NCBI RefSeq assembly: GCF_004803695.1
Contig: NZ_CP039393.1
Span: forward strand, 2,728,001-2,792,000
DNA: 64,000 bases
From: Muribaculum gordoncarteri
GTDB lineage: Bacteria; Bacteroidota; Bacteroidia; Bacteroidales; Muribaculaceae
Direction: 5' to 3'
Below the pieces are notes generated by a model. The model was not told the origin of the DNA. It worked only from the letters and a program-made list of their open reading frames with translations, and searched no databases. The position numbers and the translations under genes are program-made. How positions within the stretch are numbered: the first letter of the stretch is position 1; each line of letters starts with the position of its first letter. Shown piece after piece: positions 8,367-57,900 of the stretch.

Positions 8367-10595
8367 TCAGTTTCCAAGTTCAAGTTGGTTTTTAACAAGG
8401 TTATAGTAGTGTCCGCGGGCCGCTATCAGCGAGTCGTGGTTGCCCGACTCTACAATTCGCCCTGCATCGAGCACGATTATGTTGTCGGCGTCACGCACCG
8501 TCGACAGTCGATGGGCCACTACCACCACCGTGCGACCACGGTAGAACCGTGACAGGTTGCTCACGATTTCCCGCTCGTTGCGAGCGTCGAGCGAGTTGGT
8601 GGCCTCGTCGAGAAATATGTAGTCGGGGTTGCGGTACACGGCACGGGCAATGAGTATGCGCTGTTTCTGTCCCTGGCTCAGGCCCACCCCGTCGCGTCCT
8701 ATCTTGGTGTTGTATCTCAGCGGCAGCGACATGATGTAGTCATGGATGCATGCCGTTCGGGCGGCCTCCTCGAGCCGGGCCTCGTCGATATCGCCGTCGC
8801 TCACCGCTATGTTGCGCGCTATCGATTCCGAAAATATGACACCCTCCTGCATCACCACTCCGCACCGCCTGCGCCACCATGTCATGCTGTAGCGGTTGAT
8901 GTCGGCACCGGCTATGTCTATGCTCCCGCAATTGACCGGGTAATAGCCGAGCATCAGTTTAATCAGCGTGGTCTTTCCGCTGCCCGACGCCCCAACTATG
9001 GCCGTCACTTGCCCCTGAGGCACCGTAAAGGTTATGTTGTCGAGGGTGTTCTTCAGCGCATGGAGGTCATACCTGAAGTCGATGCCGTTCAACGTTATCG
9101 AACGATTCATGTCGTCGGCATAGCGGGTTAGGAGCTCTCCGTCGTCCTCCTCGTTGCGTCGGCCGTGTATCTCGTTGATGCGTTCAAGCGATATCTTCAC
9201 ATCCTGAAGCGAGTAGATGAAGCTCATGATTTGTGCCACGGGCGAGTTGAGCTGTCCGATGACATATTGCACGGCGAGCATGGCTCCGAGAGTCATGTCA
9301 CCGTTGATTACGGCAGTAGCGGCAAACACCGTTATGACGATGTTCTTGACCTCGTTGATGAATATCGAACCGGCTTCCTGGGTCTGCTGAAGGCTCAGCG
9401 AGCGCATCTGCACCTCAAAGAGGTCGGCCTGCGCATCCTCCCACTCCCAGCGTCGTCGACGCTCACAGTCCTGCAGCTTTATCTCCTGCATGGTGGTGAT
9501 GAACTGGTAGGTGCGGTTCTGGTTCACGGCCTGACACTCAAACAGTTCATAGTCGATCACCTTGCGTCGACGCAGGAATGCCGATATCCACAGGGCATAA
9601 CAGAGGCTGCCGATGACAAACACCATGAAAATCAATTGACTGTAGACAAACAGCACGACTCCAAACACAATGAAGCTCAGCATCGTAAACATTACGCCGA
9701 GAGTCTGCCCGGTAAGAAACGACTGCACGCGCGAGTGGTCGCTCATGCGTTGCAGCAGATCGCCCATAAGCTTTGTGTCGAAGAACGACATAGGCAGCTT
9801 GAGCAGCTTGATGAAAAAGTCGCTCACAAGCGAGATGTTGATGCGCATCGAGATGTGGAGCAGGAGCCAGCGGCGTATAAAGTCGGTGGCGGTGCGTCCG
9901 GTCACTATCATGAGTTCGCCGAGCAGGATGAGCCATATAAGGCCTATGTCGGCATCGTGGATGCCACGGTCGACAATGGCCTGTGTGAGAAACGGCATGG
10001 CAAGCTGCAGCACGCATCCGAGCAGAAGCCCGAGGAATATCTGGGCGAAGTAACCCCGATACTGCTTTATGTAGCCGACGAGAAACCTGAACGAGCGACG
10101 CTCACCCGCCTGTTCCGATTCAGCGTCCGATTGCCCGAAGCGGGGTCCGGGCTGAAGTAGCAGGGCTATGCCCCGGTCCTCGTCGCCGCTTCGTGTGCTT
10201 GCCCATCGCCGCATGAACTCATCACGGCTGTAGGTTAGCAGCCCCTTGCCAGGGTCGGCTATGTGATAACGGCCCCGGCGGTCGATGCGGTAGAGCACCA
10301 CGAAGTGGTTTTGGTTCCAATGCAAGATGGCCGGCAGTGGCGACTGTGACAGCTCACCCGGAGAGAGGCGCACCGAAGCGGTTTCAAATCCGAGTTCCGA
10401 AGCCGCTTGCGACATACCGCGCAGCGACACTCCTTCGGTAGTGGCGTGGCATAGCTCTTCAATCTGCGACAACGTACAGGCCCATCCGTAGTGGCGGCAT
10501 ACCATGGTGAGGCATGCCACGCCACATTGCATCGAGTCGCGCTGTTTTATCCAGGGAAACCGCCTGAATCGCCGTCCGATTGATTGAAAGTCCAT
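8367..10595 (-). CDS. Peptidase-containing ABC exporter (C39, bacteriocin/RiPP type)
   Basis: At 742 residues this is a full PCAT: it cleaves double-glycine leaders and exports the core peptide across the inner membrane. The C39 peptidase (about residues 12-145) has the catalytic Cys in QRDSMQCGVACL, His in WNQNHFVVLY and Asp in HIADPGKG. A six-helix membrane domain follows (about 165-460). The ATPase has Walker A GASGSGKTT (about 535), signature LSQGQKQR (about 638) and Walker B YIFLDEATNSLD (about 658). It is the only exporter beside two GG-leader precursor genes, so it probably serves both cassettes. It lies on the same strand downstream of the left cassette, with a fossil gene end in between. 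Confidence 0.93.
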   Translation of the reverse strand: MDFQSIGRRFRRFPWIKQRDSMQCGVACLTMVCRHYGWACTLSQIEELCHATTEGVSLRGMSQAASELGFETASVRLSPGELSQSPLPAILHWNQNHFVVLYRIDRRGRYHIADPGKGLLTYSRDEFMRRWASTRSGDEDRGIALLLQPGPRFGQSDAESEQAGERRSFRFLVGYIKQYRGYFAQIFLGLLLGCVLQLAMPFLTQAIVDRGIHDADIGLIWLILLGELMIVTGRTATDFIRRWLLLHISMRINISLVSDFFIKLLKLPMSFFDTKLMGDLLQRMSDHSRVQSFLTGQTLGVMFTMLSFIVFGVVLFVYSQLIFMVFVIGSLCYALWISAFLRRRKVIDYELFECQAVNQNRTYQFITTMQEIKLQDCERRRRWEWEDAQADLFEVQMRSLSLQQTQEAGSIFINEVKNIVITVFAATAVINGDMTLGAMLAVQYVIGQLNSPVAQIMSFIYSLQDVKISLERINEIHGRRNEEDDGELLTRYADDMNRSITLNGIDFRYDLHALKNTLDNITFTVPQGQVTAIVGASGSGKTTLIKLMLGYYPVNCGSIDIAGADINRYSMTWWRRRCGVVMQEGVIFSESIARNIAVSDGDIDEARLEEAARTACIHDYIMSLPLRYNTKIGRDGVGLSQGQKQRILIARAVYRNPDYIFLDEATNSLDARNEREIVSNLSRFYRGRTVVVVAHRLSTVRDADNIIVLDAGRIVESGNHDSLIAARGHYYNLVKNQLELGN

Positions 10596-10718: not shown

Positions 10719-12806
10719 TTAATCCTGCTTGGCGGTGTTGGAGTCGATCAGGCCTGAGTCATTGTCGCTGTTGTTGAGCGACTTCTTGGCTTGCTTTCGT
10801 GCCTTTCCCTTTGAGAAGAAGTATGTCAGGTTTATGGCGACAAGATTCTTCATCCCCTTCCAGCATGTCGATTCCGTGGCCGAGAAGCCTATGCCGCGGT
10901 AACGCACGTAGTCGTTCTGAGAGGCATACCGCCACTCCACGCCGGCCGATAACGCCCCCTTTTTCCATGACACCGAAGCGTAGTACTGCCAGCCGCTGCG
11001 GGTGACCATGTCGCCGCTAAATGACTTGTCGGGCGAGTTGACGGATGCGATGAACTGCAAGCGGCGATAGGACATCGCCACCATGCCTCCTATGCGGTGA
11101 TAGTTGTGCCGTATGGTTGAGCTTGGCGTTGAGTATCCGTCGTGGAAGTACTGGTAATAGCTCTGCAGCATCATCCAGTTGCATGGCGAGTAGTTGACTA
11201 TCATCGTGCCGTTGAGCTCGTTGCGTGCATTTATCCTCATCGGCATCATGACGATGTTGTCGCCATCCGACAGCAGGCACGGCACGTTGGGATGATGGGA
11301 GTAGAGGTACTCGATTGACGGAGAGAGCGACAACCACCCGTCGGATGTAGAGTACTGGGGCTTAAATGTCAGCGAGAATGTCCTGTAGGGCTTCAGGGCG
11401 GGATTTCCCGTAGCGATGAAGCGTGAGTCGATGTTGACCCGGTTTTCGGCAAGGTCGCCGGTAGTGGGTCGCGTTCCCTTAAGCTTGGCGATGAGGCGTG
11501 TAGAGAATGTGCGCGTAAACCGATAGAAGAGTGTGAGCGACGAATAGGGTATCACGTTGACGAAGCTCTGGCCCGATACGGGGTGCTGTGCAACCGCATT
11601 GGCACCGAGCGACGCGTAGTAACTCAGTCGCTTATAGCGTCCGGTGTAGGCGATGTAGGCGTAGTGCTGGCGCATGTTGAGATAGGATTCGGGGCCGCCG
11701 TTGTAGGACTGGCGCAGCTCCTTGTAGTTGAAGTAGGCGCCTGTGTTGAGCTCGCCTTTCCACAGCGGCGTGGTGTAGTCGGCCTGTGCTATTATCGAAT
11801 AGTAGCGGTTGTCGATGTTGTTGAGTATATCGTAGTCCATCGACGAGTATTGCTCCGGCATCTTGAGCCACAGCCGGTTGTGGGATTCCGATGAGGAGAA
11901 TGTGTTTACCACATTCACCGCAAGGGAGCGTTTGCCGGCAAAGTCATGCCTGAAGTAGAGGTCGGCGCTCCAGCGGTCGTCGTCGCTGCGCAGGTCATGG
12001 TCCCTGAGTCCTGACAAGTCGCGTGCATTGTCGGTGTAAAGAGTCGACTGCTTGTTCCTTATGTGTCCCGGACGGTTGCCGTAGCGCACATTGGCGTTGA
12101 ACAGGTTGGCTCCCTGGTAGCGCTGATATATGAGCTGTCCGTATTGGTAATGTCCCGAATATTGTCCGTCGCGGCTTCGGTAGGATGACAGTGCCGACCG
12201 GTAGTCGTAGTCGGCATTGGTGCTTCGGTCGACATTGCGGTAGTCGATGAAGTAGTTGGCCGTGAGCATATTGAGCGAGTCGGCATAGGTAAGGCTTGCC
12301 TGATCGGTGCCGTAACCGGTGGTCACTGCGTTAAGGGCGTTTATGTAGGCGCTGTAGAGGCGGTCCTTGCGGCGGCGTATCGTCACGTCGATAACCGGGC
12401 CTGAGGCCATCATCTGGTATTTGGCCGGCGGCTCATGGTAGTAGGTCACCTTCTTTATGTCGTTACCCTGATAGGTGCGCAGTGTGGCTGCGTCGGACGG
12501 CATGCCGTTGATGAATATCGCCACGCTCCTCATGTCGGCCGTTTGCAGTGAAGTAGCGCTTATGGCGGTCGAGAACTGGGGCAGGCTTGAGATTGCATCA
12601 AGTGCGTTGGTGCCGAATTCGCGTTGTTTTTTCGTAAGGATTATCTCGTCGCGGTTGCCTACCGACTGCACAAACTCAGCCTGTACGGTCACCTCCTTCA
12701 GCGATATTGTGGTGTCGTTTTTCTCGCGATTGTCGCTTAGGGCGTAGTCGGGAACCGAGATGAAGAGCAGGCACAGCAGGGCTTTTATAATCATGGCAGT
12801 CTTCAT
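10719..12806 (-). CDS. Outer-membrane beta-barrel protein, cassette A
   Basis: ATG 12806 (MKTAMIIKALLCLLFIS) gives a clear signal peptide and 695 residues; it begins 7 bases after the maturase stop. A TonB-plug-like segment (ISLKEVTVQAEF, then NALDAISSLPQF, VAIFINGMPSDAATLR, about residues 30-150) is followed by a long series of Tyr-rich alternating beta-strands, as in the outer-membrane beta-barrel family related to TonB receptors. Unlike its cassette-B paralogue it lacks an N-terminal carboxypeptidase-regulatory-like domain, and its C-terminus is a Lys/Asn-rich tail (KARKQAKKSLNNSDND). It may pass the peptide through the outer membrane or act as receptor; sequence does not decide. It is GC-richer than the maturase next to it. 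Confidence 0.75.
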   Translation of the reverse strand: MKTAMIIKALLCLLFISVPDYALSDNREKNDTTISLKEVTVQAEFVQSVGNRDEIILTKKQREFGTNALDAISSLPQFSTAISATSLQTADMRSVAIFINGMPSDAATLRTYQGNDIKKVTYYHEPPAKYQMMASGPVIDVTIRRRKDRLYSAYINALNAVTTGYGTDQASLTYADSLNMLTANYFIDYRNVDRSTNADYDYRSALSSYRSRDGQYSGHYQYGQLIYQRYQGANLFNANVRYGNRPGHIRNKQSTLYTDNARDLSGLRDHDLRSDDDRWSADLYFRHDFAGKRSLAVNVVNTFSSSESHNRLWLKMPEQYSSMDYDILNNIDNRYYSIIAQADYTTPLWKGELNTGAYFNYKELRQSYNGGPESYLNMRQHYAYIAYTGRYKRLSYYASLGANAVAQHPVSGQSFVNVIPYSSLTLFYRFTRTFSTRLIAKLKGTRPTTGDLAENRVNIDSRFIATGNPALKPYRTFSLTFKPQYSTSDGWLSLSPSIEYLYSHHPNVPCLLSDGDNIVMMPMRINARNELNGTMIVNYSPCNWMMLQSYYQYFHDGYSTPSSTIRHNYHRIGGMVAMSYRRLQFIASVNSPDKSFSGDMVTRSGWQYYASVSWKKGALSAGVEWRYASQNDYVRYRGIGFSATESTCWKGMKNLVAINLTYFFSKGKARKQAKKSLNNSDNDSGLIDSNTAKQD

Positions 12807-12813
12807 GTGCGCG

Positions 12814-14091
12814 TTATTTGCAATGTTCAATGAAATCTATTAAAGAAGTTTCGATATTTGAATCTTGAGCATCCATTTTGCAATAATTACGTTTTTTTGC
12901 ATGGTCACGAGGACAAATTCCCATACATACGGGTAAATACTTGCAATTTAGACATTTGGGATTCTCATAGCTTTTTTCTTGATACAATTTGTCAAAATTG
13001 TTTTTCCATTCAATTTTTCCGTCTTCCTGTAGCTGTCCGGGAGGATTGCTTTCATATAAATCATTGCAAGCAGTGCATTTTACAACACCGCCATTATAAT
13101 TTATAGCATTGTAATACTCCCTATTAGCATAACAGGGCACGAAATTGTCAACGATTTCCATTCGTGCTGCATTATATCCGTAATCATTGAATTCATCAAG
13201 AATTGAAATAGTTGACAATTGGAAATTTTTGTCAACACTTTCCTGCCATACTTTTTTAGGTGTTATGGTCAATTGTTTTCTGTTTTCCGGCGAGATGTAT
13301 TCATTGATTTGACTTACTATTTTGTTAGTTAATGTTTTATGCGTATAATTTATGCGTAGAACAATATTCATATCCTTTAACGCCGACAATATTTTGTCGA
13401 TGTTGCCCAATGTATGTACAAATGCTGAATCGCAGCCGTTTTGGAATTTTACTTTGTCATGGTTCCCTTTATCCCCGTCCAAAGTTATCTGAAATCCGGA
13501 AAATTTCAACCGTTTTAAATCTTTGATTTTATCAGAGGATAGAAAATATCCGTTTGTGGTTGCTGAATTTAGAAATGGAATTTTAGCTTTATCACATTTT
13601 TCTATTGCGTATTCGCTAATTGGAGCTATCACTTGTTTAAAGTACATGAATGGCTCTCCTCCAAACCATTCTATGTGGAGAGATGTGATATTTCGCTCAT
13701 CAATCATGTAATCAATGTGTTTCTTTACTCGAGTTATAGTTTCCTGCGACATCATTGACGGAATGTGATTCTGTATGCAGTACCAGCATTTGTAATTGCA
13801 ATTCAGTGTCGGTAAAATTACTAAAAAATAATCTTTTGAATGTATTGTTTCAAGATTTCTTTTTCGGATTACCTCAATTTCATCAACATTATCATCAATT
13901 ATAAACTCATTGTCGACTAATTTTTGATAAAAGGATGGTGCCGATTCTTTTAATATTTCAGGGTTGCAAATTAAAGGTTTTATCTTATTACCCAATTCTA
14001 TAGGGAGAGTAAAGAATTTATGTGATACCCCGTTATACCAATAGCTTTTTGAGTCTTTAGATAGGATATAGTTGTAATGACTTGGTTTCAT
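12814..14091 (-). CDS. Radical SAM/SPASM peptide maturase, cassette A
   Basis: A 425-residue enzyme of the radical SAM peptide-modifying type. The SAM cluster motif is CNYKCWYC (CX3CX2C, about residues 98-105), followed by EWFGGEPFMYF and a TTNGYFLS segment. The C-terminal SPASM part carries many Cys: CYANREYYN, VVKCTACND, NPKCLNCKYLPVCMGICP, NYCKMD, enough for two auxiliary clusters. Residues 1-90 form a precursor-recognition-like N-domain. Such enzymes form Cys-to-carbon thioether or related crosslinks; the Cys-rich precursor encoded 53 bases upstream is the obvious substrate (inference). The gene is AT-rich compared with its surroundings. Confidence 0.9.
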   Translation of the reverse strand: MKPSHYNYILSKDSKSYWYNGVSHKFFTLPIELGNKIKPLICNPEILKESAPSFYQKLVDNEFIIDDNVDEIEVIRKRNLETIHSKDYFLVILPTLNCNYKCWYCIQNHIPSMMSQETITRVKKHIDYMIDERNITSLHIEWFGGEPFMYFKQVIAPISEYAIEKCDKAKIPFLNSATTNGYFLSSDKIKDLKRLKFSGFQITLDGDKGNHDKVKFQNGCDSAFVHTLGNIDKILSALKDMNIVLRINYTHKTLTNKIVSQINEYISPENRKQLTITPKKVWQESVDKNFQLSTISILDEFNDYGYNAARMEIVDNFVPCYANREYYNAINYNGGVVKCTACNDLYESNPPGQLQEDGKIEWKNNFDKLYQEKSYENPKCLNCKYLPVCMGICPRDHAKKRNYCKMDAQDSNIETSLIDFIEHCK

Positions 14092-14144: not shown

Positions 14145-14372
14145 TTAAGGTTCTTCTACCTTGCCTCCTCCGGCTTCAAATCCGTCCTCGTTTTCATCGA
14201 CAGGACAAGCGCATCCCGCTTTGCGATTGACACATTGCATGTCCAATTCGCAAGCACATCCTACTACTGAATTGGAGCATTGATACTGTAAAGTTATGCC
14301 TGAACGACCTCCTTTAACCTCCAATGCTTCTAACTCTGAGAGTTCTTGAAATGAAAATATACTCTTAAGCAT
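14145..14372 (-). CDS. Double-glycine RiPP precursor peptide A (Cys-rich)
   Basis: A 75-residue peptide. Leader residues 1-22 (MLKSIFSFQELSELEALEV then KGG) end in Gly-Gly with the hydrophobic spacing typical of C39-processed leaders. The 53-residue core holds six Cys in two similar units: QCSNSVVGCAC and QCVNRKAGCAC, i.e. Q-C-x-N-x3-G-C-A-C, separated by ELDM. The tail is acidic and Gly-rich (DENEDGFEAGGGKVEEP). It sits between a secreted DUF3244-like gene and the maturase. I infer Cys-based crosslinks placed by the adjacent radical SAM enzyme and leader removal by the C39 exporter. Confidence 0.85.
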   Translation of the reverse strand: MLKSIFSFQELSELEALEVKGGRSGITLQYQCSNSVVGCACELDMQCVNRKAGCACPVDENEDGFEAGGGKVEEP

Positions 14373-14471: not shown

Positions 14472-14846
14472 CTATTTTACAAAATTTCCTATATAGGTTG
14501 TTTCATCGATGTTAAGGTATAGGGTGTAGCTTATGCCTTTAGTCAATCCTGTTATTGTAAACTCTTGGCATTGATTATTGGTGCTTGACGGATACCCGCT
14601 CCACACCATGTTGTTATTTTTTAAAACAACTACAGTTACATTATCACTGTATTCGCCATATACGCGTAACACATCATTGTCATCGATGGTGACATAAGGA
14701 GAATGTTTTGACGGCATTCTTTTGGGAAGGTTTTTATTATCTGGATGGTCATTTTCAGTGCATACAGGAATAATATCTTCTCCTAATAGCATTATATTCA
14801 TTGAACATATAGCAGCAATAATTAATGATATAAATCTAGTTTTCAT
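14472..14846 (-). CDS. Secreted DUF3244-like protein, cassette A
   Basis: A 124-residue protein with an N-terminal signal peptide (MKTRFISLIIAAICSMNIMLL) and a small beta-sandwich-like C-terminal domain (SPYVTIDDNDVLRVYGEYSDN to the end) of the kind called DUF3244 in Bacteroidetes. The last 76 residues are nearly identical to those of the cassette-B protein, while the N-terminal parts are unrelated. It is the first gene of the peptide operon, 98 bases before the precursor. Its role is unknown; a periplasmic chaperone, immunity or binding protein are all possible. Confidence 0.65.
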   Translation of the reverse strand: MKTRFISLIIAAICSMNIMLLGEDIIPVCTENDHPDNKNLPKRMPSKHSPYVTIDDNDVLRVYGEYSDNVTVVVLKNNNMVWSGYPSSTNNQCQEFTITGLTKGISYTLYLNIDETTYIGNFVK

Positions 14847-14872: not shown

Positions 14873-14880
14873 CAAATATA
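14873..14880 (-). promoter_or_regulatory. -7 box of the cassette A peptide operon
   Basis: Read on the minus strand this is TATATTTG (TAnnTTTG). It lies 26 bases upstream of the DUF3244-like start, and the operator array begins 31 bases upstream of it, a usual activator position. Confidence 0.65.
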
Positions 14881-14910
14881 AAATGAGGCTTTATTCTATC
14901 CAAGATTTTT

Positions 14911-15011
14911 AGTGCGCAAAAAGTGCGCATTTTCAAAAAATGTTATTCTTTAGTGCGCAAAAAGTGCGCATTTTCAAAAAATGTTATTCTTTAGTGCGCA
15001 AAAAGTGCGCA
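14911..15011. repeat. Operator-like iteron array, cassette A (period 41)
   Basis: AGTGCGCA occurs six times at 14911, 14922, 14952, 14963, 14993 and 15004. The two copies in each pair are 11 bases apart (one helical turn) and pairs repeat every 41 bases (about four turns). The array lies between the TPR-HTH regulator stop and the peptide operon promoter, so all sites face the same side of the helix. I infer a cooperative binding site, most simply for the regulator encoded next to it. Confidence 0.75.
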
Positions 15012-15029
15012 AAAAACGTATTAATACAT

Positions 15030-16799
15030 TTATAATGAGCGGATAAATGAGTCCCAATCTCGGGCTGACGCTTTCTCAATTTTGAATACTTTTGCATATA
15101 GTCTAGATCTAATAGATGTTACGGTTTCTTTTGAGCGATTAACCATTTTGCTGATGTTGGACGGGCTAATGCCTATCTTTATGAGCATTGTCACTCTCCA
15201 TTCCAATGCACTCATGAATCTGTCGGGATGCAGTTTTTTATAAAAATCAGGACAATTGGAAATTATGGATTTTTCAAGAGCTTTCCACTCATTATATGAT
15301 AGATTGAAATTATTATCCGAAATATTTCTTTTTATCTTCCCAACAATCTCGCTTGACATTAATTTATTGTCGGAAATTTGTTTGGAACTTGTCAAATCTT
15401 CCAGTTGTGCCGTGGTTTGATTTAATGTGTTTTCTAATTCGGTAATGTAGTCGGTCAATGAATTTACTTTCTCATTATATGAATGGTTTTCTAAAAGCAG
15501 ATTTGTTATTTTCGCATGCAATTCTTCCGTTACTTTCAATTTTTCATTGAGAATATTCTCAGTTTCGCTCTCATGTAAGAATTTCATATTATTAAGTAAT
15601 TCTATTTGGTGTTGTGATTTCAATTTTATTGATTTCCACCAAAAGAATATAAAGAGCATAATCAATATAGATATAGCTGACAATATTATTATAATCTTGT
15701 TTTTGCGCGCATTATTGACTTTTAAGTCGCTGTTTTCTATTTTATATAGTGAATAGTCATAATTTGCCTTTACACGAGCTACAGCTTCAGCACCCTCTAT
15801 CTTTCTAATTGAATCAACCGCATCGAACGCTTTGTTATTGTATTTTAAAGCATCATGCCATTGCATTTTTTGTATGTGATACAGTGTAATATTTCTATAA
15901 GCATTCCTTTTTGCATATATAGAGCCGTTATCACATAACCATAATAGATATGGCAATGCTTGTTGTGATTTGCCCCGTTGCATATAAATTTTGGATGTTA
16001 TAGCATATAATACACTTTTTAAATTCTCGGTTTTATAATCATACATAAGAGCTTTCTCTATTAGAGAATCGGCTACCTCTTTGTTGCCCAATGAGTTTTC
16101 AAGATATGCATATTGTGAGAGTAGACATCCAGATAATTCCTCTTCATTGATACTTTGTGATAACTCATATGCTTTCTTATAACAGATTAATGCGCTATCT
16201 TCATGATTCATGTTAATGTAAGTGTGAGCTATCTCTTTCAATCCATCAATTATAAACAATGTGTCGTTTAGCGCATAGGATAAATCCAATGATTTTTTAT
16301 TAGCGTTAAGCGCATATTCAAAAAGACCTTGTCTATAATATAAATCACCGATTTGGGTATATATGTACGTTCTTAATCTGTCATTATCGTTTGAAATGAG
16401 GGAGTTGACTGCTTTCTGGTAGTAGTCGAGGGCGCGGGGAGCGTCGCCGAGGTCGCTGTAGACTCGTCCGGCGTAATATAGGGCAAGCGGTGTGAGATCG
16501 GGGTCGGAGTGGCCGGTGAAGTACTCGACCACGGGGGCTATCATCGAGTCGTTGCGGTGCTCGATGTAGGCCTTGTCGCGTGACTTTATAAGCATCAGGT
16601 CGTAACGCATCCGCGTTGCCTTGTCGGCTTGATTGATGGCGGGTGACAGTGAGTCGAGGAGCGCGATTGCGCTGTCGGGGCAGGTGTCGGCGAGCCGTCC
16701 GGCGCGGTCGATGTCGTCGCGCAGACGCGAGTTGTCGGCACACCCGGCGACGACGGCGATGCACACGACGGTGATGAATATGTGTAACAAATGCTTCAT
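15030..16799 (-). CDS. TPR lipoprotein-type membrane regulator with C-terminal HTH, cassette A
   Basis: A 589-residue protein. The signal sequence ends in a lipobox (VVAGC, Cys20). TPR-like helical repeats fill about residues 25-360 (LALYYAGRVYSDLGDAPRALDYY and similar). One membrane segment (about 366-388, IIIILSAISILIMLFIFF) is followed by a coiled coil (about 395-470) and a C-terminal helix-turn-helix-like domain (MLIKIGISPSNISKMVNRS, then SIRSRLYAKVF) ending DWDSFIRSL. This fits a sensor outside the inner membrane joined directly to a DNA-binding domain. The first 126 codons are almost identical to cassette B and GC-rich; the remainder is AT-rich and divergent, so the gene is a chimera. 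Confidence 0.8.
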   Translation of the reverse strand: MKHLLHIFITVVCIAVVAGCADNSRLRDDIDRAGRLADTCPDSAIALLDSLSPAINQADKATRMRYDLMLIKSRDKAYIEHRNDSMIAPVVEYFTGHSDPDLTPLALYYAGRVYSDLGDAPRALDYYQKAVNSLISNDNDRLRTYIYTQIGDLYYRQGLFEYALNANKKSLDLSYALNDTLFIIDGLKEIAHTYINMNHEDSALICYKKAYELSQSINEEELSGCLLSQYAYLENSLGNKEVADSLIEKALMYDYKTENLKSVLYAITSKIYMQRGKSQQALPYLLWLCDNGSIYAKRNAYRNITLYHIQKMQWHDALKYNNKAFDAVDSIRKIEGAEAVARVKANYDYSLYKIENSDLKVNNARKNKIIIILSAISILIMLFIFFWWKSIKLKSQHQIELLNNMKFLHESETENILNEKLKVTEELHAKITNLLLENHSYNEKVNSLTDYITELENTLNQTTAQLEDLTSSKQISDNKLMSSEIVGKIKRNISDNNFNLSYNEWKALEKSIISNCPDFYKKLHPDRFMSALEWRVTMLIKIGISPSNISKMVNRSKETVTSIRSRLYAKVFKIEKASARDWDSFIRSL

Positions 16800-17203
16800 A
16801 GCTTCCGCGAATATACGAATAATCCGCGAAATTCACCCAATAAAAGTGGCGGGCGGAGGGGAGGGATATGCGGCGTGCGTGTGCTCCGCGTGACCTCCGC
16901 TCAATCATCAAATCCCCGCGATAGCGTGAGAGCTGCGTAGCTGCTCAATAAGTTTAGCCTCATGCAAATACGCCCTTGGGTGCGTGCAGCGTGAGGTCAT
17001 GTCGTGCCCCCACCATCCCCGAGGGCTGCGTTAGCTGCCCAATAAAATGTTATCGTTGCCGGGTGGAGCGTTTTATTGGGCAACTACGTAGCCCTTTTCC
17101 TTTTTTGTTATCGCTTTTTACCCGTGCTGCGGACGCCTAACGGCGGCCTTGCGCGGGCCTAACGTTATTAAGCAGCTAACGCAGCTTTGGCGCTAACGCG
17201 GGG
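16421..17203. repeat. Long direct repeat, left copy
   Basis: This segment is nearly identical by eye to 23321-24104, with scattered substitutions and one 1-base indel. It covers the first 126 codons of the regulator and about 400 bases of upstream DNA. Identity stops abruptly at both ends: on the left inside the regulator reading frame (after LDYY), on the right in GC-rich filler. Confidence 0.9.
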
Positions 17204-19814: not shown

Positions 19815-21062
19815 TTAACACGATGTCACGTTTAATAATATTCGATTAGTTACAATGCTGTCCTTTTCATCATCATCGAAGTTGTGCATACAATAGTCGG
19901 TTGATCCCATTGATTGCTTTGTACAACCACCATGGCACAATGGAAATATTCTACAATGACGGCAATTGGGATTTTTAAATTTTGAAGCCATTCGTTTTTC
20001 CAATGAGTCGTTTTCCCAGATGATTTCTCCTTCCGATGAAAGATATCCGTCCCTTGGTGTCTTTGCAAAGTCAACCGCTGTACATTTGTAGATATCTCCG
20101 TTGTAATTTATCATACAGCTGTTTCTTATGTCCCCATAACAAAAACTACGGAAATCCATTTTGGCTGAAGGGATACCCTCGTTACTGAATGCGGTGATCA
20201 TGTTATCCATGTAGGCATATATTTCCTTGCGATTGTTATCCTGCCATACAATCTGTAAGTCTACACGAATCAGTTTCTTTTCATCACAAGTCAGTTCATT
20301 GAAATAAGCGGGAATCTGCCCTATTGATGCCATGTTGTCCTTTGAACAGTTCACTCTCAATGTTACGCTCATTCCGTTTTTAACCATTAATTTTATATTA
20401 TTCACTATATGAGTGAATGTGTCATCGCCCTTATGGCGAAAACGTATGCTGTTGTGTATATCTTTGTCGCCGTCAAGAGTTATTTGCGCTCCAGTGAAAT
20501 TCAACATTTTCATTGCCTTTATTCTTTTTTCCGACAGGAGGAAACCGTTGGATGTCATGTTGGCCGAGAACGGAATTTGGGCTTCAGATGATTTGTCATA
20601 GGCATGTTTTAATATTGGCACCATGACTTCGTTATAATATAGCATTGGCTCTCCACCGAAAAATGATATTGTCAAATTTTTGCCCTCATTTATTATTTTG
20701 TCAATCAGCGACTTGACGCGTTCAATCATTTCAGGTGCCATTTTTGATGCAATGTGTGATTCATAGCAGTACCAACAATGAAAATTACAGTTAATCGTAG
20801 GATTTATTATTAGATGAAAACTTGTGTCATTTTTTTCGATTGTCAATGCTCTCTTAATAAACTCATCACGTTCATCTACAATGTCATCAACAATGAATCC
20901 CTCCGTTACAAGTTTACTTAACAACGACTCATTTACATCAAGGATGTTGGTGTCACATATAATTTTATCGGGTATAACTACTGTAGTATCGGTCAATGCA
21001 TTATAGATTACCGTAGAATTTTCAGTAGGGTGCAGATATGTGTTGTATATGCTTTTTTTCAT
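19815..21062 (-). CDS. Radical SAM/SPASM peptide maturase, cassette B
   Basis: 415 residues, paralogous to the cassette-A enzyme. The cluster motif is CNFHCWYC (about residues 91-98), followed by FFGGEPMLYY and TSNGFLLS; the A and B enzymes share TLDGD around the middle. The SPASM part contains SFCYGDIRNSC, YKCTAV, NPNCRHCRIFPLCHGGC and DYCMH, enough Cys for two auxiliary clusters. The N-terminal 85 residues differ from cassette A, as expected if they read different leaders. The gene is AT-rich. The NCQC-repeat precursor is encoded immediately upstream, separated by a strong hairpin. Confidence 0.9.
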   Translation of the reverse strand: MKKSIYNTYLHPTENSTVIYNALTDTTVVIPDKIICDTNILDVNESLLSKLVTEGFIVDDIVDERDEFIKRALTIEKNDTSFHLIINPTINCNFHCWYCYESHIASKMAPEMIERVKSLIDKIINEGKNLTISFFGGEPMLYYNEVMVPILKHAYDKSSEAQIPFSANMTSNGFLLSEKRIKAMKMLNFTGAQITLDGDKDIHNSIRFRHKGDDTFTHIVNNIKLMVKNGMSVTLRVNCSKDNMASIGQIPAYFNELTCDEKKLIRVDLQIVWQDNNRKEIYAYMDNMITAFSNEGIPSAKMDFRSFCYGDIRNSCMINYNGDIYKCTAVDFAKTPRDGYLSSEGEIIWENDSLEKRMASKFKNPNCRHCRIFPLCHGGCTKQSMGSTDYCMHNFDDDEKDSIVTNRILLNVTSC

Positions 21063-21144: not shown

Positions 21145-21402
21145 CTATTCTAAACTGGGATCTGTTGAAATGTAACGACATTGACAATTGTTACCATTAC
21201 ATTGGCAGTTATTGGAACTTTCTGAACCACATTGACAATTATTGCTTCTACATTGGCAATTGTTACCATTGCATTGGCAGTTATCGGTTGTTTCATGTCC
21301 TGTGTGGTCTAAGCCTCCAAACACAAAACATTCTTCTTCTTCAGAGAGCCGATTTTGTACATTCGCGACCAATTCTTTTAATGATAGAAATGTTGTTTGC
21401 AT
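21145..21402 (-). CDS. Double-glycine RiPP precursor peptide B with NCQC repeats
   Basis: 85 residues. The leader (MQTTFLSLKELVANVQNRLS, then EEEECFVFGG, residues 1-30) ends in Gly-Gly. The core contains five NCQC units (Cys 42/44, 49/51, 56/58, 66/68, 73/75), mostly with a seven-residue period (CQCNGNN, CQCRSNN) and one longer spacer, GSESSN. That gives ten core Cys in CXC pairs, plus one Cys in the leader. No family name comes to mind for this core. The order precursor then radical SAM/SPASM enzyme is the same as in cassette A. Regular CXC spacing suits repeated thioether or ring formation by the maturase; simple metal binding is the main alternative. Confidence 0.85.
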   Translation of the reverse strand: MQTTFLSLKELVANVQNRLSEEEECFVFGGLDHTGHETTDNCQCNGNNCQCRSNNCQCGSESSNNCQCNGNNCQCRYISTDPSLE

Positions 21403-21502: not shown

Positions 21503-21856
21503 TTATTTAGTGAATTCACCGATGTAGGTTGTTTCATCGATGTTAAGGTATAGGGTGTAGTTTATGCCTTTAGTCAATCCTGTTACTGTAAACTCTTGGC
21601 ATTGATTATTGGAGCTTGACGGGTACCCGCTCCACACCATGCTGTTATTGTTAAAAACAACTACAGTTACATTATCACTGTATTCGCCATATACGCGTAA
21701 CACATCATTGTCATCGATGGTGACATAAGGAGAATAACCTAATGAACGATCAACAATCGTTTGTTGCTCTTTGCTTTGTTCAACGCTTATTGGCTTTTCT
21801 TTTGCAAATAGTGCTAATGAAAATATCATCATTATTGCACAAAGGAAATGTTTCAT
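21503..21856 (-). CDS. Secreted DUF3244-like protein, cassette B
   Basis: ATG 21856 (MKHFLCAIMMIFSLALFAKE) gives a signal peptide and 117 residues. From SPYVTIDDNDVLRVYG to the end it is nearly identical to the cassette-A protein (changes such as LKNNN to FNNNS, ISYT to INYT). Upstream of that point the two are unrelated. The sharply bounded similarity in a region where neighbouring genes differ strongly points to gene conversion or a strict functional constraint. It is the first gene of the cassette-B peptide operon. Confidence 0.65.
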   Translation of the reverse strand: MKHFLCAIMMIFSLALFAKEKPISVEQSKEQQTIVDRSLGYSPYVTIDDNDVLRVYGEYSDNVTVVVFNNNSMVWSGYPSSSNNQCQEFTVTGLTKGINYTLYLNIDETTYIGEFTK

Positions 21857-21880: not shown

Positions 21881-21888
21881 CAAAGAAA
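21881..21888 (-). promoter_or_regulatory. Possible -7 box of the cassette B peptide operon
   Basis: The minus-strand reading TTTCTTTG differs from TAnnTTTG at one position. It is 24 bases upstream of the start codon and 34 bases from the nearest repeat site, matching the cassette-A geometry. Confidence 0.4.
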
Positions 21889-21922
21889 TGAATGCTCGTT
21901 TATACTTGCAAGTTTTTAATTA

Positions 21923-21979
21923 CGCAAAATTTTACAAAACCATTAATTTAACGAGTGTTAATCTCGCAAAATTTTACAA
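21923..21979. repeat. Operator-like direct repeat, cassette B (period 42)
   Basis: CGCAAAATTTTACAA occurs exactly at 21923-21937 and 21965-21979. The sequence differs from the cassette-A sites, but the 42-base spacing and the position (between regulator stop and DUF3244-like promoter) are the same. This fits a cassette-specific site for the cassette-B regulator. Confidence 0.7.
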
Positions 21980-21995
21980 GCTCTCAATAACTCCT

Positions 21996-23699
21996 TTATA
22001 ATGAACCTATAAAGTCATCCCAATTCTTAAATGCAGAATCCTCTTTTTTAAAGTACCTTTGATATAATCGTGATCGTATCGATGAAATTGAGCTAAAGCT
22101 TTTCATCATTATCGGGGCTATTTCACCTGGAGCAAACCCCACTTTTATAAGCATAGATACTCTAAGATCGCTAGTTTTATGTACTCCGATATAACTCAAT
22201 GTTTCAAAAAATGATGGGTATGCTGATTCTATCTCTTTCATAAGCTCTCCCCAATCCGTTTCCTGAGGTCGAAATCCATTACTTTTGAATTTAAGTAGTA
22301 TTGGGCTTAGGAATATGGAAACCGCAGGTTCGCTATCAATGATTGCATCGTGTTTGTTGCAAAATTGAGAACTGATTTGAACGCTTTTATCGTTGACGGA
22401 TGTATAATTCTGTATCAAATCAAGTTCTTCTTTTTTCTTTGAGAGGTGCTTTTTAACACCAATGTCGCTGTTGTCGATTATACGTTGTATCTTTTGATAT
22501 TCATTGATAGCTTGCAAACGCTTGTTCTTTAGATATATGATGCATGCAGTTGCCGATACAGCCACGATTATGAGTATTAACAGCAATGTCAGGATATAGA
22601 ATTGATTTCTTGCGTTTTGCGCTGACAATTTCTCATTTTCTCGTTCGCGAATAGCGAAGTTGTATTTTGCATTTATTTTAGCAAGTTCCTCATTGTTATA
22701 ACTTTTATTCAATGAATCGTTATATAGTATATACATGTTTATGTATTCTACTGTTTGCGACACATCTTCTTTTGCCATTGCAATGTTGGCCAATAAACCG
22801 CTTGCCGATTTTTTGTTGAGCAATGAACCACTGTCGAGCATCCAATGGATGTGAGGCAGTGCCTTGGCTGTGTCATTTAGTTCGATATAAATATTGGAAG
22901 CTATTGAGTGTACCTGCTGCTCTATGTCGGAAGGATAGCATTCCAAAACCGGTTTGAATATTGAATCGGCCTTCTCAAACATATCCAATTGAATGTAGTA
23001 TGATGCAATTTGCGAACGTACTCGGTTAAGTCCTTTTAGGTCATTTAGCCTCAATTGATTTTCCAAAGCTTTGTTATAGCATATTAGTGCGCTGTCTGGT
23101 TTGCCAAGTTGGCGAAAGCATATCGCAGATTGAAGAAGTATCCTGACAATGCGTGTTGTGTCATGCATTTCTTTAGCACATTTGTGGGCAATGTCAAAAT
23201 AATATTTTGCATTTACGTATATGTCCTGTTGTTGAAAAATTGTTCCAATCTGTCCGGAGATTAGATATCGCATCATATTGTTTTCCGGATTGTCATTGAG
23301 GGAATTAAGTGCGTTATAATAGTAGTCGAGGGCGCGGGGGGCGTCGCCGAGGTCGCTGTAGACTCGTCCGGCGTAGTATAGGGCAAGCGGGGTGAGATCG
23401 GGGTCGGTGTGGTCGGTGAAGTATTCGACCACGGGGGCTATCATTGAGTCGTTGCGGTGCTCGATGTAGGCCTTGTCGCGTGATTTTATTAGCATCAGGT
23501 CGTAACGCATCCGCGTTGCCTTGTCGGCTTGATTGATGGCGGGTGACAGTGAGTCGAGGAGCGCGATTGCGCTGTCGGGACGGGTGTCGGCGAGCCGTCC
23601 GGCGCGGTCGATGTCGTCGCGCAGACGCGAGTTGTCGGCACATCCGGCGACGACGGCGATGCACACGACGGTGATGAATATGTGTAACAAATGCTTCAT
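21996..23699 (-). CDS. TPR lipoprotein-type membrane regulator with C-terminal HTH, cassette B
   Basis: ATG 23699 (MKHLLHIFIT) is chosen by identity with cassette A, giving 567 residues; an upstream in-frame ATG at 23732 is possible. Lipobox Cys20, TPR-like repeats to about 350, membrane segment about 363-388 (ILTLLLILIIVAVSATACIIYL), coiled coil, and a C-terminal HTH-like part (MLIKVGFAPGEIAPIMMKS, SIRSRLYQRYF, ending NWDDFIGSL). The first 126 codons are nearly the same as in cassette A; the rest is AT-rich and only distantly similar, including the HTH, in line with the different operator sequence. Proposed role: senses a signal outside the inner membrane and switches its own peptide operon. 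Confidence 0.8.
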   Translation of the reverse strand: MKHLLHIFITVVCIAVVAGCADNSRLRDDIDRAGRLADTRPDSAIALLDSLSPAINQADKATRMRYDLMLIKSRDKAYIEHRNDSMIAPVVEYFTDHTDPDLTPLALYYAGRVYSDLGDAPRALDYYYNALNSLNDNPENNMMRYLISGQIGTIFQQQDIYVNAKYYFDIAHKCAKEMHDTTRIVRILLQSAICFRQLGKPDSALICYNKALENQLRLNDLKGLNRVRSQIASYYIQLDMFEKADSIFKPVLECYPSDIEQQVHSIASNIYIELNDTAKALPHIHWMLDSGSLLNKKSASGLLANIAMAKEDVSQTVEYINMYILYNDSLNKSYNNEELAKINAKYNFAIRERENEKLSAQNARNQFYILTLLLILIIVAVSATACIIYLKNKRLQAINEYQKIQRIIDNSDIGVKKHLSKKKEELDLIQNYTSVNDKSVQISSQFCNKHDAIIDSEPAVSIFLSPILLKFKSNGFRPQETDWGELMKEIESAYPSFFETLSYIGVHKTSDLRVSMLIKVGFAPGEIAPIMMKSFSSISSIRSRLYQRYFKKEDSAFKNWDDFIGSL

Positions 23700-24104
23700 A
23701 GCTTCCGCGAATATACGAATAATCCGCGACATTCGCCCAATAAATGTGGCGAGGCGGCGGGGAGGGATATGCGGCGTGCGTGTGCTCCGCGTGACCTCCG
23801 CTCAATCATCAAATCCCCGCGATAGCGTGAGAGCTGCGTAGCTGCTCAATAGGGTTAGCCTCATGCAAACGCGCCTTTAGGTGCATGCAGCGTGAGGTCA
23901 TGTCGCGCCCCCACCATCCCCGAGGGCTGCGTTAGCTGCCCAATAAAATGTTATCGTTGCCGGGTGGAGCGTTTTATTGGGCAACTACGTAGCCCTTTTT
24001 CTTTTTTGTTATCGCTTTTTACCCGTGCTGCGGACGCCTAACGGCGGCCTTGCGCGGGCCTAACGTTATTAAGCAGCTAACGCAGCTTTGGCGCTAACGC
24101 GGGG
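23321..24104. repeat. Long direct repeat, right copy
   Basis: Partner of 16421-17203. It includes the regulator 5' part, upstream region and nested palindromic units. Confidence 0.9.
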
Positions 24105-54944: not shown

Positions 54945-57900
54945 ATGGCGAGAATAAAGATAAGCAAAGTAGCAAAAGATTTAAACATTGCCCTTCCCAC
55001 AGTAATTGAATTTCTTCAATCCAAGGGCATCAACATCGACATGAATCCCAATTCACGTATCGATGAGGATGCTTACAACCTGTTGGTAGCGGCTTACAGC
55101 AGCGATAAAGCTCAAAAGAGCAAGTCGGAGAAGCTCTCGTCCGACCGCCAGAAAGAGAGAGCGGTAAAACCCGAACCCAAAGCCGAGCCCGAGGCTAAGG
55201 AGATAAAAATCCCCACAACCACAATCAAGCCCAAGGTAGTGGGACACATCGACCTTGACGCTCACGGTAAGCCCGTAAAGAAATCGGAGCCCGAGCCCAA
55301 GGCTGTAGAAACTCCCAAGCCCGAACCCAAGGCTGAACCTAAACCTGAGCCCAAGCCTCAGCCCCAACCCGAGGTAATCAAGCCCGAGCCTAAGGCTGTA
55401 GAAACGCCCAAACCCGAGCCCAAGGTTGAACCGAAGCCCGAGCCCAAGCCCCAACCTAAAGCCGAGCCCAAGCCCGAAAAGCCCGAACCCGCTGCAAAGC
55501 CCGTTCAGGAGCCTCGTGCCGAGGTAAAGCCCGAAGCTCCCAAGCCCGAGATGAAAAAAGCCGAAGCTCCCGCGCCCAAAGAAGAGCCCAAGCCTCAGCC
55601 CCAGAAGGAGCCGGTTCAGGATGAGCCCGCAGCCTCCGACGATGTGTTCACAATGGAGCGCACCGTTTCAGGTCCTCAGCTCAACGTAATCGGAAAAATC
55701 GACTTGTCGGCCATCAACCAGCAGACTCGTCCCAAGAAAAAGAGCAAGGAAGAGCGTCGCAACGAGCGTATAGCCAAGGATCGTGCAGCCCAGAACGCCC
55801 AGGGTGGTGCAGGTGCACAGCAGTCGGGCGACCGCAAAAAGCGTCGTCGCATCGGCAAGGAGAAGGTCGACATCGAAAAGACATCCAACCAGCAGCCCTC
55901 ACAGCGTGGCGGTGATTCGGAAAAAGGACAAGGGGGAGGTTCTCGCCACGAACGCAACCGTGAGCGCGACAGAGATCGCGAACGCGACCGTGAATGCGAA
56001 CGCGAAAGAGCGCCCAAATCCAAGGAGCGCAACAAGCGACCCATCCACGCCGAAGCCAATGAGGAGGATGTTCAGAAGCAGGTAAAAGAAGTGCTTGCAC
56101 GCCTCACCAACAAGGACAAAGGCCAGAAGAAAGGCGCGAAGTGGCGTAAGGAAAAACGCGAGGCCTTCCAGTCACGCGAGCGCGAAGCTGCCGAAATGGA
56201 AGCAGCTGAGAGCAAGGTGCTGAAGCTCACTGAATTTGTTACAGCCAACGACCTCGCTGTAATGATGGATGTACCCATCAACAACGTAATCGCAACGTGC
56301 ATGAATCTCGGCGTAATGGTGTCGATAAACCAGCGCCTTGATGCCGAAACCATAAACATTGTGGCCGAGGAGTTTGGCTACAAGACCGAATACGTTTCAG
56401 CCGAAGTGGTTGAAGCCATACATCAGGAAGAGGATGATGAGGACAACCTTACCACCCGTCCGCCGATTGTCACCGTAATGGGACACGTGGACCACGGTAA
56501 GACCTCGCTGCTCGACTACATCCGCAACGCCAACGTGATTGCAGGCGAGGCCGGAGGTATAACCCAGCACATCGGAGCCTACAATGTCAAGCTCGGCGAC
56601 GGCCGACGCGTTACATTCCTTGACACACCCGGTCACGAAGCGTTTACCGCCATGCGTGCCCGCGGAGCCAAGGTCACCGACTTGTGTATTATCATCGTCG
56701 CAGCCGACGACAACGTGATGCCCCAGACCGTTGAGGCCATCAACCACGCATCGGCAGCAGGCGTGCCTATAGTATTTGCCATCAACAAGATTGATAAGCC
56801 CACCGCCAATCCCGACAAGATCAAGGAGGAGCTCGCAGCCATGAACTACCTCGTTGAGGATTGGGGCGGAAAATACCAGTCGCAGGACATCTCGGCCAAG
56901 AAGGGCCTCGGAGTCGACGAACTCATGGAGAAAGTGCTCCTTGAAGCCGAAATGCTCGACCTTAAAGCCAATCCCGACCGTCCCGCAACAGGCTCAATCA
57001 TCGAGTCGTCGCTCGACAAGGGTCGCGGTTACGTAGCCACAGTGCTTGTCCAGAACGGAACTCTCCACGTTGGCGACATAATCCTTGCCGGAACTCACTT
57101 CGGAAAGGTGAAAGCTATGTTCAACGAGCGTAACCAGCGCATAAAGGAGGCCGGTCCGGCAGTTCCCGCACTTGTACTCGGTCTTAACGGAGCACCCACC
57201 GCAGGCGACACATTCAATGTAATGGCCACCGAGCAGGAAGCCCGCGAAATAGCCAACAAGCGCGAACAGCTTCAGCGCGAACTCGGACTACGCACCAACA
57301 AGCGTACAACCCTCGAGGAGATTGGCCGTCGTCGCGCCATAGGCAACTTCCACGAGCTCAACATCATCGTCAAGGGCGATGTCGACGGTTCGATTGAGGC
57401 CCTGTCCGATTCACTCATCAAGCTTTCGACCGAAGAGGTACAGATCAACGTGCTTCACAAGGCTGTGGGCGAGATTTCGGAAAGCGATGTCACTCTTGCT
57501 GCGGCATCCGACGCTATCATCATCGGCTTCCAGGTGCGTCCCTCACAGGCCGCCCGTCGTGCCGCCGAGCGTGAAGGCGTTGAAATACGACTCTATTCGG
57601 TTATCTATCAAGCCATCGAGGAGGTCAAGGACGCAATGGCCGGAATGCTTGCACCCGAGCTTAAGGAAGAGGTGCTCGGTACTGCCGAAGTATTGCAGAC
57701 CTACCACATCTCCAAGGTGGGCACAATCGCCGGAGCAATCGTGCGCGAAGGAAAAATCAAGCGTTCTTGCAAGGTGCGCCTGATTCGCGAAGGTATCGTG
57801 CGCTACACCGGCGAGCTCGGCTCTCTGAAACGCTTCAAGGACGATGTAAAGGAAGTGCTTACGGGTTATGACTGCGGTCTAAGCATAGCAGGCTACAACG

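Follow-up and report, generated by a model that had tools for sequence, protein, structure and literature searches.

The window, a stretch of 64,000 nucleotides from Muribaculum gordoncarteri, carries a group of minus-strand genes and intergenic elements that we refer to as cassette A:

15030-16799, minus strand: regulator A, with a lipobox signal, a periplasmic TPR sensor, one transmembrane (TM) helix, a coiled coil and a C-terminal helix-turn-helix (HTH) modelled as LuxR/NarL-like
14908-15011, minus strand: array A, predicted operators made of TGCGCAC(TTTT) in three pairs, each head-to-tail, 11 bp within a pair and 41 bp between pairs
14912-14918, 14923-14929, 14953-14959, 14964-14970, 14994-15000 and 15005-15011, minus strand: the units of array A
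14901-14904, minus strand: putative -33 element CTTG, read from the sequence, lying between array A and the -7 box, 20 bp upstream of the latter
14873-14880, minus strand: -7 box TATATTTG of the TAnnTTTG type, 31 bp past the last array A unit and 49 bp from where the proximal pair begins
14472-14846, minus strand: opening gene of the predicted controlled operon, coding for a small secreted DUF3244/Ig-like protein
14145-14372, minus strand: Cys-containing precursor peptide with a GG-type leader (...LEALEVKGG), an ORF whose motif was read directly
12814-14091, minus strand: radical SAM/SPASM peptide maturase (family match)
10719-12830, minus strand: outer-membrane-barrel-like protein, a weak assignment with no family match
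8367-10595, minus strand: C39-peptidase ABC exporter (PF03412, PF00664, PF00005)

Scanning the window for AGTGCGCA returned exact matches at 14911, 14922, 14952, 14963, 14993 and 15004, and on the coding (minus) strand each array A unit reads TGCGCACTTTT. Tandem Repeats Finder reported one 41-bp array at 14908-15011, with 2.5 copies, 100% matches and 0 indels. An earlier sequence-only reading had described six sites arranged as 11-bp pairs every 41 bp, beginning just past the regulator gene and ending about 30 bp upstream of a -7 box. The exact coordinates and the perfect copies bear this arrangement out; 18 bp separate the stop codon of regulator A from the array, and the measured distance to TATATTTG is 31 bp. 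TAnnTTTG is the established -7 box of Bacteroidota. A search of the 3.43 Mb genome for the doublet TGCGCAC-N4-TGCGCAC gave three occurrences with zero mismatch, every one in array A. Across the window, one-mismatch matches to AGTGCGCA show no excess (58 found versus 66 expected), and thus the signal of array A lies in clustering and spacing, not in the word itself. The same reading had called the repeats iterons, a label that we dropped as misleading: plasmid-type iterons are tandem repeats accompanied by a Rep initiator and an origin, whereas array A lies on a chromosomal contig of 3.3 Mb, its neighbours are the regulator and the peptide operon, and nothing points to replication.

The precursor peptide, the radical SAM/SPASM maturase and the C39 exporter share one predicted operon, which makes cassette A a radical-SAM RiPP cluster. 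The first gene encodes a small secreted protein in 43 homologous loci, and DUF3244 (PF11589) was matched in 13 of these 43; in Pfam, the cassette A protein had no DUF3244 match and its counterpart in a second cassette, B, reached E 6e-4, under the cut-off. The first-gene profile matched PDB 3sd2 at E 0.009. Two homologous loci (L190, L199) carry a radical SAM enzyme, an outer-membrane barrel, a C39 exporter and a Cys-rich GG peptide, L189 carries small NVEAL-motif peptides with a six-bladed propeller protein, and L194 a GLPGLI protein with a CarboxypepD_reg-domain protein. Since the later operon genes differ among loci, the module would govern secreted-peptide operons generally, not a single chemistry. 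Small secreted peptides with the NVEAL motif were seen in the operons of both L189 and L192, the propeller neighbour in L189. Elsewhere in the window, an unrelated 1005-aa ORF contains Pro/Lys/Glu-rich coding tandem repeats with periods of 12-93 (55288-55477).

Domains and modelled fold of the regulator

Besides its lipobox, regulator A has a TM helix near residue 369. Pfam placed TPR_2, TPR_12 and TPR_8 above cut-off, residues 24-345 form helical repeats in the structure model, and no NTPase/NOD domain was found with Pfam. The C-terminal HTH comprises residues 484-588 and was modelled with a pLDDT of 93; its helices span residues 531-541, 546-552, 557-572 and 579-588, the third being the recognition helix. 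The best structural matches of this domain were LuxR/NarL-type response regulators, NarL, DosR, LiaR, VraR, RcsB and VpsT among them. With Z 7.6 (rmsd 2.0 over 66) for VpsT and Z 6.5 (rmsd 2.0 over 59) for NarL, both below 8, the fold matches are suggestive only if taken alone. The four-helix HTH, and the location inside its third helix of the residues that covary with the DNA sites, agree with the LuxR/NarL fold. At the sequence level, the GerE profile gave no match in regulator A or B (Pfam, E<=0.1), and LuxR-type PDB chains matched the regulator HTH only at E 0.008 and above. On the structure model, the HTH of regulator A has a LuxR/NarL-like fold; because the GerE sequence-profile match was missing, we did not place it in the GerE Pfam family.

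Paired sites and promoter distance across the family

Relatives of regulator A were gathered with HTH profiles from the genus, the family and the order, and their 3' flanks were taken. This gave 118 distinct relatives of the lipobox-TPR-TM-HTH regulator (HTH differing by >5%), Muribaculaceae nearly throughout, and 104 non-redundant loci (HTH differing by >20%). A subclade query returned 8 loci, most of them again titled Muribaculaceae; one record each was titled Porphyromonadaceae and Oscillospiraceae. The contig titled Oscillospiraceae (L207, JAETSI010000059.1) carries a Muribaculaceae-type regulator together with its operator, and is probably mis-binned. A search of genome-contig and viral-contig collections with the regulator alignment returned no named relatives.

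We scanned the 160 bp downstream of each regulator stop codon for repeats at lags of 6-80. Lag 11 was the top repeat lag in 52 of the 104 non-redundant loci and scored at least 9 in 60 of them; its mean score was 9.5, versus a median of 4.1 over the other lags, and the runner-up mean was that of lag 41. Broader order-wide TPR-LuxR matches (L068-L095) are without the 11-bp pair and were used as controls. The lag-11 signal appeared in about 0.5 of 58 loci in dinucleotide shuffles and in 1 of 29 controls, while a scan for the pair rose above the shuffled 95% threshold in 76/104 loci versus 1/31 controls. A guided search found the pair plus a box in 82 of the 118 regulators, a count that is not independent evidence for the distance because the search was confined to 48-52 bp; under the criteria used, the combination was missing in the other 36 (~30%). 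Judged from these flanks, every regulator of this family would precede its own variant of a shared paired site.

When pairs and boxes were located independently, the last forward pair lay 49-52 bp from the next TAnnTTTG in 33 of 39 cases. Lag-11 identity over 66 loci, which is independent of pair calls, peaked at offset 49-50 (3.2, versus about -5.5 elsewhere). Further upstream copies were either direct, at 22, 31, 33, 41-43 and 62 bp, or inverted and convergent, with gaps mostly of 7-9 and 17-22 bp, and 10.5-bp phasing was seen for direct and inverted inter-pair spacings alike (Rayleigh p 0.006, n = 8, and 0.002, n = 27). We rejected the 41-bp period as a conserved element, given this range of direct and inverted layouts. 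Loss of the spacing among homologous cassettes had been named as a refuting outcome. The layout is in fact kept; from the aligned flanks we take the 11-bp pair and the distance between this pair and the promoter to be the invariants, and the 41-bp period to be one of several phased variants. In other genera (L030, L131, L140, L174 and others) we observed convergent inverted pairs, GTNCGGA ... TCCGNAC, in place of direct ones; these could fold into hairpins.

The sites sit between the regulator gene and the operon, and the sign of control is unreadable from sequence. The regulator might thus bind them as a repressor, or to autoregulate its own 3' end, rather than activate the operon. We consider this improbable. 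Repressor sites usually overlap the promoter, whereas here about 31 bp separate the end of the proximal pair from the -7 box, the -33/-7 region stays uncovered, and a constant pair-to-box distance is what contact with the polymerase requires. Sites placed upstream of -33 fit an activator. Activation of the DUF3244-like/peptide/radical-SAM operon by the neighbouring regulator is most likely, and the cooperative activator that had been proposed from helical phasing gains in silico support from the 10.5-bp phasing and from the position upstream of -33.

Covariation between recognition helix and paired site

The letters of the unit differ between regulators. We aligned it as T[G/C]NNNAC, with bases numbered 0-6, and compared it with the residues of the HTH. 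In the full HTH matrix the strongest residue-base pairs were 557-base 6 (z 6.5) and 563-base 1 (z 5.7), and both links recurred when unit 1 or unit 2 was used separately. Lys or Arg at residue 557 goes with C at base 6 (45/47), Pro, Asn, His or Ile with A (12/12) and Glu or Asp with G (6/8). Arg at residue 563 goes with C at base 1 (42/43), and any other residue with G or T (29/29). The 557-base 6 link held within clades (permutation p 0.0005 at every clustering level) and in a nearest-neighbour test (p 3e-4), while the 563-base 1 link was weaker within clades (p 0.03-0.05) and is largely one deep phylogenetic split.

Each base was then predicted after all similar HTHs had been removed. In this leave-out prediction, no HTH residue did better for bases 6, 1 and 4 than residues 557, 563 and 558, which scored 58/68, 67/68 and 46/70 against majority-class baselines of 50/72, 42/72 and 30/72, respectively. 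A link between residue 562 and base 2, strong in mutual information (MI) and in the nearest-neighbour test, did not rise above baseline in leave-out and is not claimed.

The genome holds two paralogues of cassette A, cassette B in the window and cassette C at 784 kb, and both were held out of the covariation training set. The features of cassette B are:

21996-23699, minus strand: regulator B, paralogue of regulator A with 45% overall identity and an almost identical stretch over the first 381 nt
21920-21978, minus strand: predicted operator array B, TGTAAAA/TGCGAGA + TGTAAAA/TGCGTAA, 10 bp within a pair and 42 bp between pairs
21881-21888, minus strand: -7 box TTTCTTTG, 38 bp from the start of the second unit
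21503-21856, minus strand: DUF3244-like secreted protein (PF11589, E 6e-4)
21145-21402, minus strand: Cys-rich precursor peptide with NNCQC repeats (ORF)
19815-21062, minus strand: radical SAM/SPASM maturase (family match)

The cassette C array reads TGTAAAA/TGTAAAA + TGTAAAA/TGCGCAA, with 11 bp within a pair and 41 bp between pairs, and its -7-like box TCTCTTTG, read by eye, is one base off TAnnTTTG. In both held-out cassettes the array lies in the gap past the regulator gene, its layout matches that of A and the letters differ; the pairs of B have a 10-bp lag and are imperfect repeats. From the second unit to the -7-like box, the distance is 38 bp in A, B and C. Cassette C obeys both covariation rules, with Pro557 facing base A and Ile563 facing base G.

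Several other features of the paralogues were observed. Over their first 381 nt, the three regulator genes share 92-100% identity, which then drops suddenly to ~60% (window 16419-17199 and 23319-24099; L004 13802-14582); this sharp boundary may reflect gene conversion, or an exchange of cassettes at a fixed border. The 400 bp upstream of regulators A and B are 96.5% identical, and this duplicated intergenic region contains 21-nt inverted repeats (GCTGCGTTAGCTGCCCAATAA) at 17025-17045/17165-17185 and 23926-23946/24066-24086. Over 232 nt, the 3' parts of the DUF3244-like genes of A and B share 93% identity (14473-14704, 21504-21735), although other cassette parts have diverged.

Three operator-promoters of the same geometry have no adjoining regulator (L212 8538-9013; ~964.0-964.5 kb of the M. 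gordoncarteri contig). Their pairs are TGTCAAG, spaced by 34 bp, TGCGAA, spaced by ~42 bp, and TGCACAC, spaced by 42 bp, and a -7-like box lies 48-49 bp from each; they resemble what lost cassettes would leave behind, or targets that are unlinked to their regulator. Regulator and operator can therefore be separate, which lends some room to the idea that another, unlinked regulator binds the array A sites. We regard this as very unlikely, since the bases covary one by one with the recognition helix of the adjacent gene, the sites are enriched behind this subfamily only, and the array A doublet is unique to this place in the genome. Less credible still are readings of the repeats as a neutral minisatellite, or as a terminator, hairpin or attenuator acting on the regulator transcript. 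The perfect tandem repetition of array A and the foldable inverted layouts elsewhere speak for such readings, but array A is direct, not inverted, fixed promoter spacing and HTH covariation extend over >70 loci, and a neutral minisatellite would not retain an 11-bp lag with different letters at each locus. The adjacent HTH-bearing membrane regulator, named as the candidate binder in the sequence-only reading, is thus favoured in silico by the covariation between its recognition helix and the operator bases.

A predicted membrane-bound activator and its counterparts

Because the layout is conserved with a fixed promoter distance, covaries with the recognition helix and fits the held-out cassettes B and C, we interpret the sites as operators of the neighbouring regulator. 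Geometry, conservation, restriction to this regulator subfamily, promoter distance and residue-base covariation all came directly from computation; from them we infer DNA binding, activation over repression and a periplasmic trigger. We put the probability that array A is the operator of the adjacent membrane regulator, acting as a cooperative activator of the peptide operon, at roughly 0.87.

Our model suggests that monomers of the C-terminal LuxR/NarL-like HTH would bind head-to-tail to two 7-bp units, the 11 bp between them corresponding to one helical turn. At the promoter-proximal pair, 49-51 bp upstream of the -7 box and just upstream of -33, the bound activator would contact RNA polymerase, and one or two extra pairs, whole helical turns away, would contribute cooperativity. 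The periplasmic TPR domain is proposed to sense a signal, upon which the dimerised or clustered membrane protein would fill the sites. Their occupancy would switch on the DUF3244-like protein, the Cys-rich peptide, the radical SAM maturase, the outer-membrane protein and the C39 exporter. In this model the regulator, divergently evolving and encoded just upstream of its operator, would in each cassette read its own site, and paralogous cassettes would consequently be insulated.

These observations suggest that the cassettes diversify their DNA recognition to remain insulated, a case rarely documented at this scale. A broader and more speculative possibility, which we consider less likely than not, is that Muribaculaceae have a large repertoire of insulated regulator-operator pairs that diversify fast, travel with secreted-peptide cassettes and have a readable residue-to-base code. 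Sensor, recognition helix, operator and cargo would be swapped together, as a single block that follows the homogenised 5' part of each regulator gene, and each cassette would sense its own product or partner as a private channel for kin or self recognition. The analysis offers an initial way to work out how dozens of orphan secreted-peptide/RiPP operons in gut Muribaculaceae may be switched on; operator, promoter and cognate regulator become predictable from sequence for most such clusters, and the residue-to-base rule could supply orthogonal regulator-operator pairs for Bacteroidales.

Open-access literature on this operator type, DUF3244 and NVEALA yielded nothing relevant, subscription papers being mostly outside its scope, and we found no description of the operator type in the open-access literature searched. 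The regulators have a weak full-length sequence relation to the BT3442 family of Bacteroides (NF053779), at 80.4 and 78.9 bits against a curated cut-off of 940 bits, which leaves them outside that family. BT_3442 contains TPRs and heads a cluster in which most genes encode lipoproteins and a homologue of the Ig-like BVU_0276 is present (PMC2954219), and the cluster of this family differs in having MACPF proteins. A search with the family returned weak relatives only, without the layout described here, and two of them (L094, L096) have no 11-bp pair. Bacteroidales RiPP clusters (PMC10352776) and graspetide loci that include a TPR cluster (PMC8939145) resemble cassette A in their cargo of peptide, radical SAM enzyme and C39 exporter, and some have TPR genes beside them; the relevant passages of the two papers describe no operators. 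There, the role of the TPR proteins is called unclear (PMC8939145) and a link to gene regulation is only suggested (PMC10352776).

LuxR/NarL response regulators share with regulator A the four-helix HTH and 7-bp half-sites read by the third helix. They differ in having a receiver domain, which is missing here, and the basic site here is a head-to-tail pair. NarL/DosR-type sites are typically inverted half-sites.

MalT of E. coli, a STAND activator, multimerises, binds cooperatively to several sites upstream of the promoter and recruits RNA polymerase (PMC4381067). Like regulator A, in which the TPR-like superhelical sensor was found, it joins a TPR-like sensor to a LuxR-type HTH (PMC4381067). 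In contrast, MalT resides in the cytoplasm and contains an ATPase/NOD module, whereas regulator A combines a lipobox with a single TM helix and lacks an NTPase domain. By analogy, we propose that the regulator would work like MalT, yet as a membrane-bound protein and not as a STAND protein.
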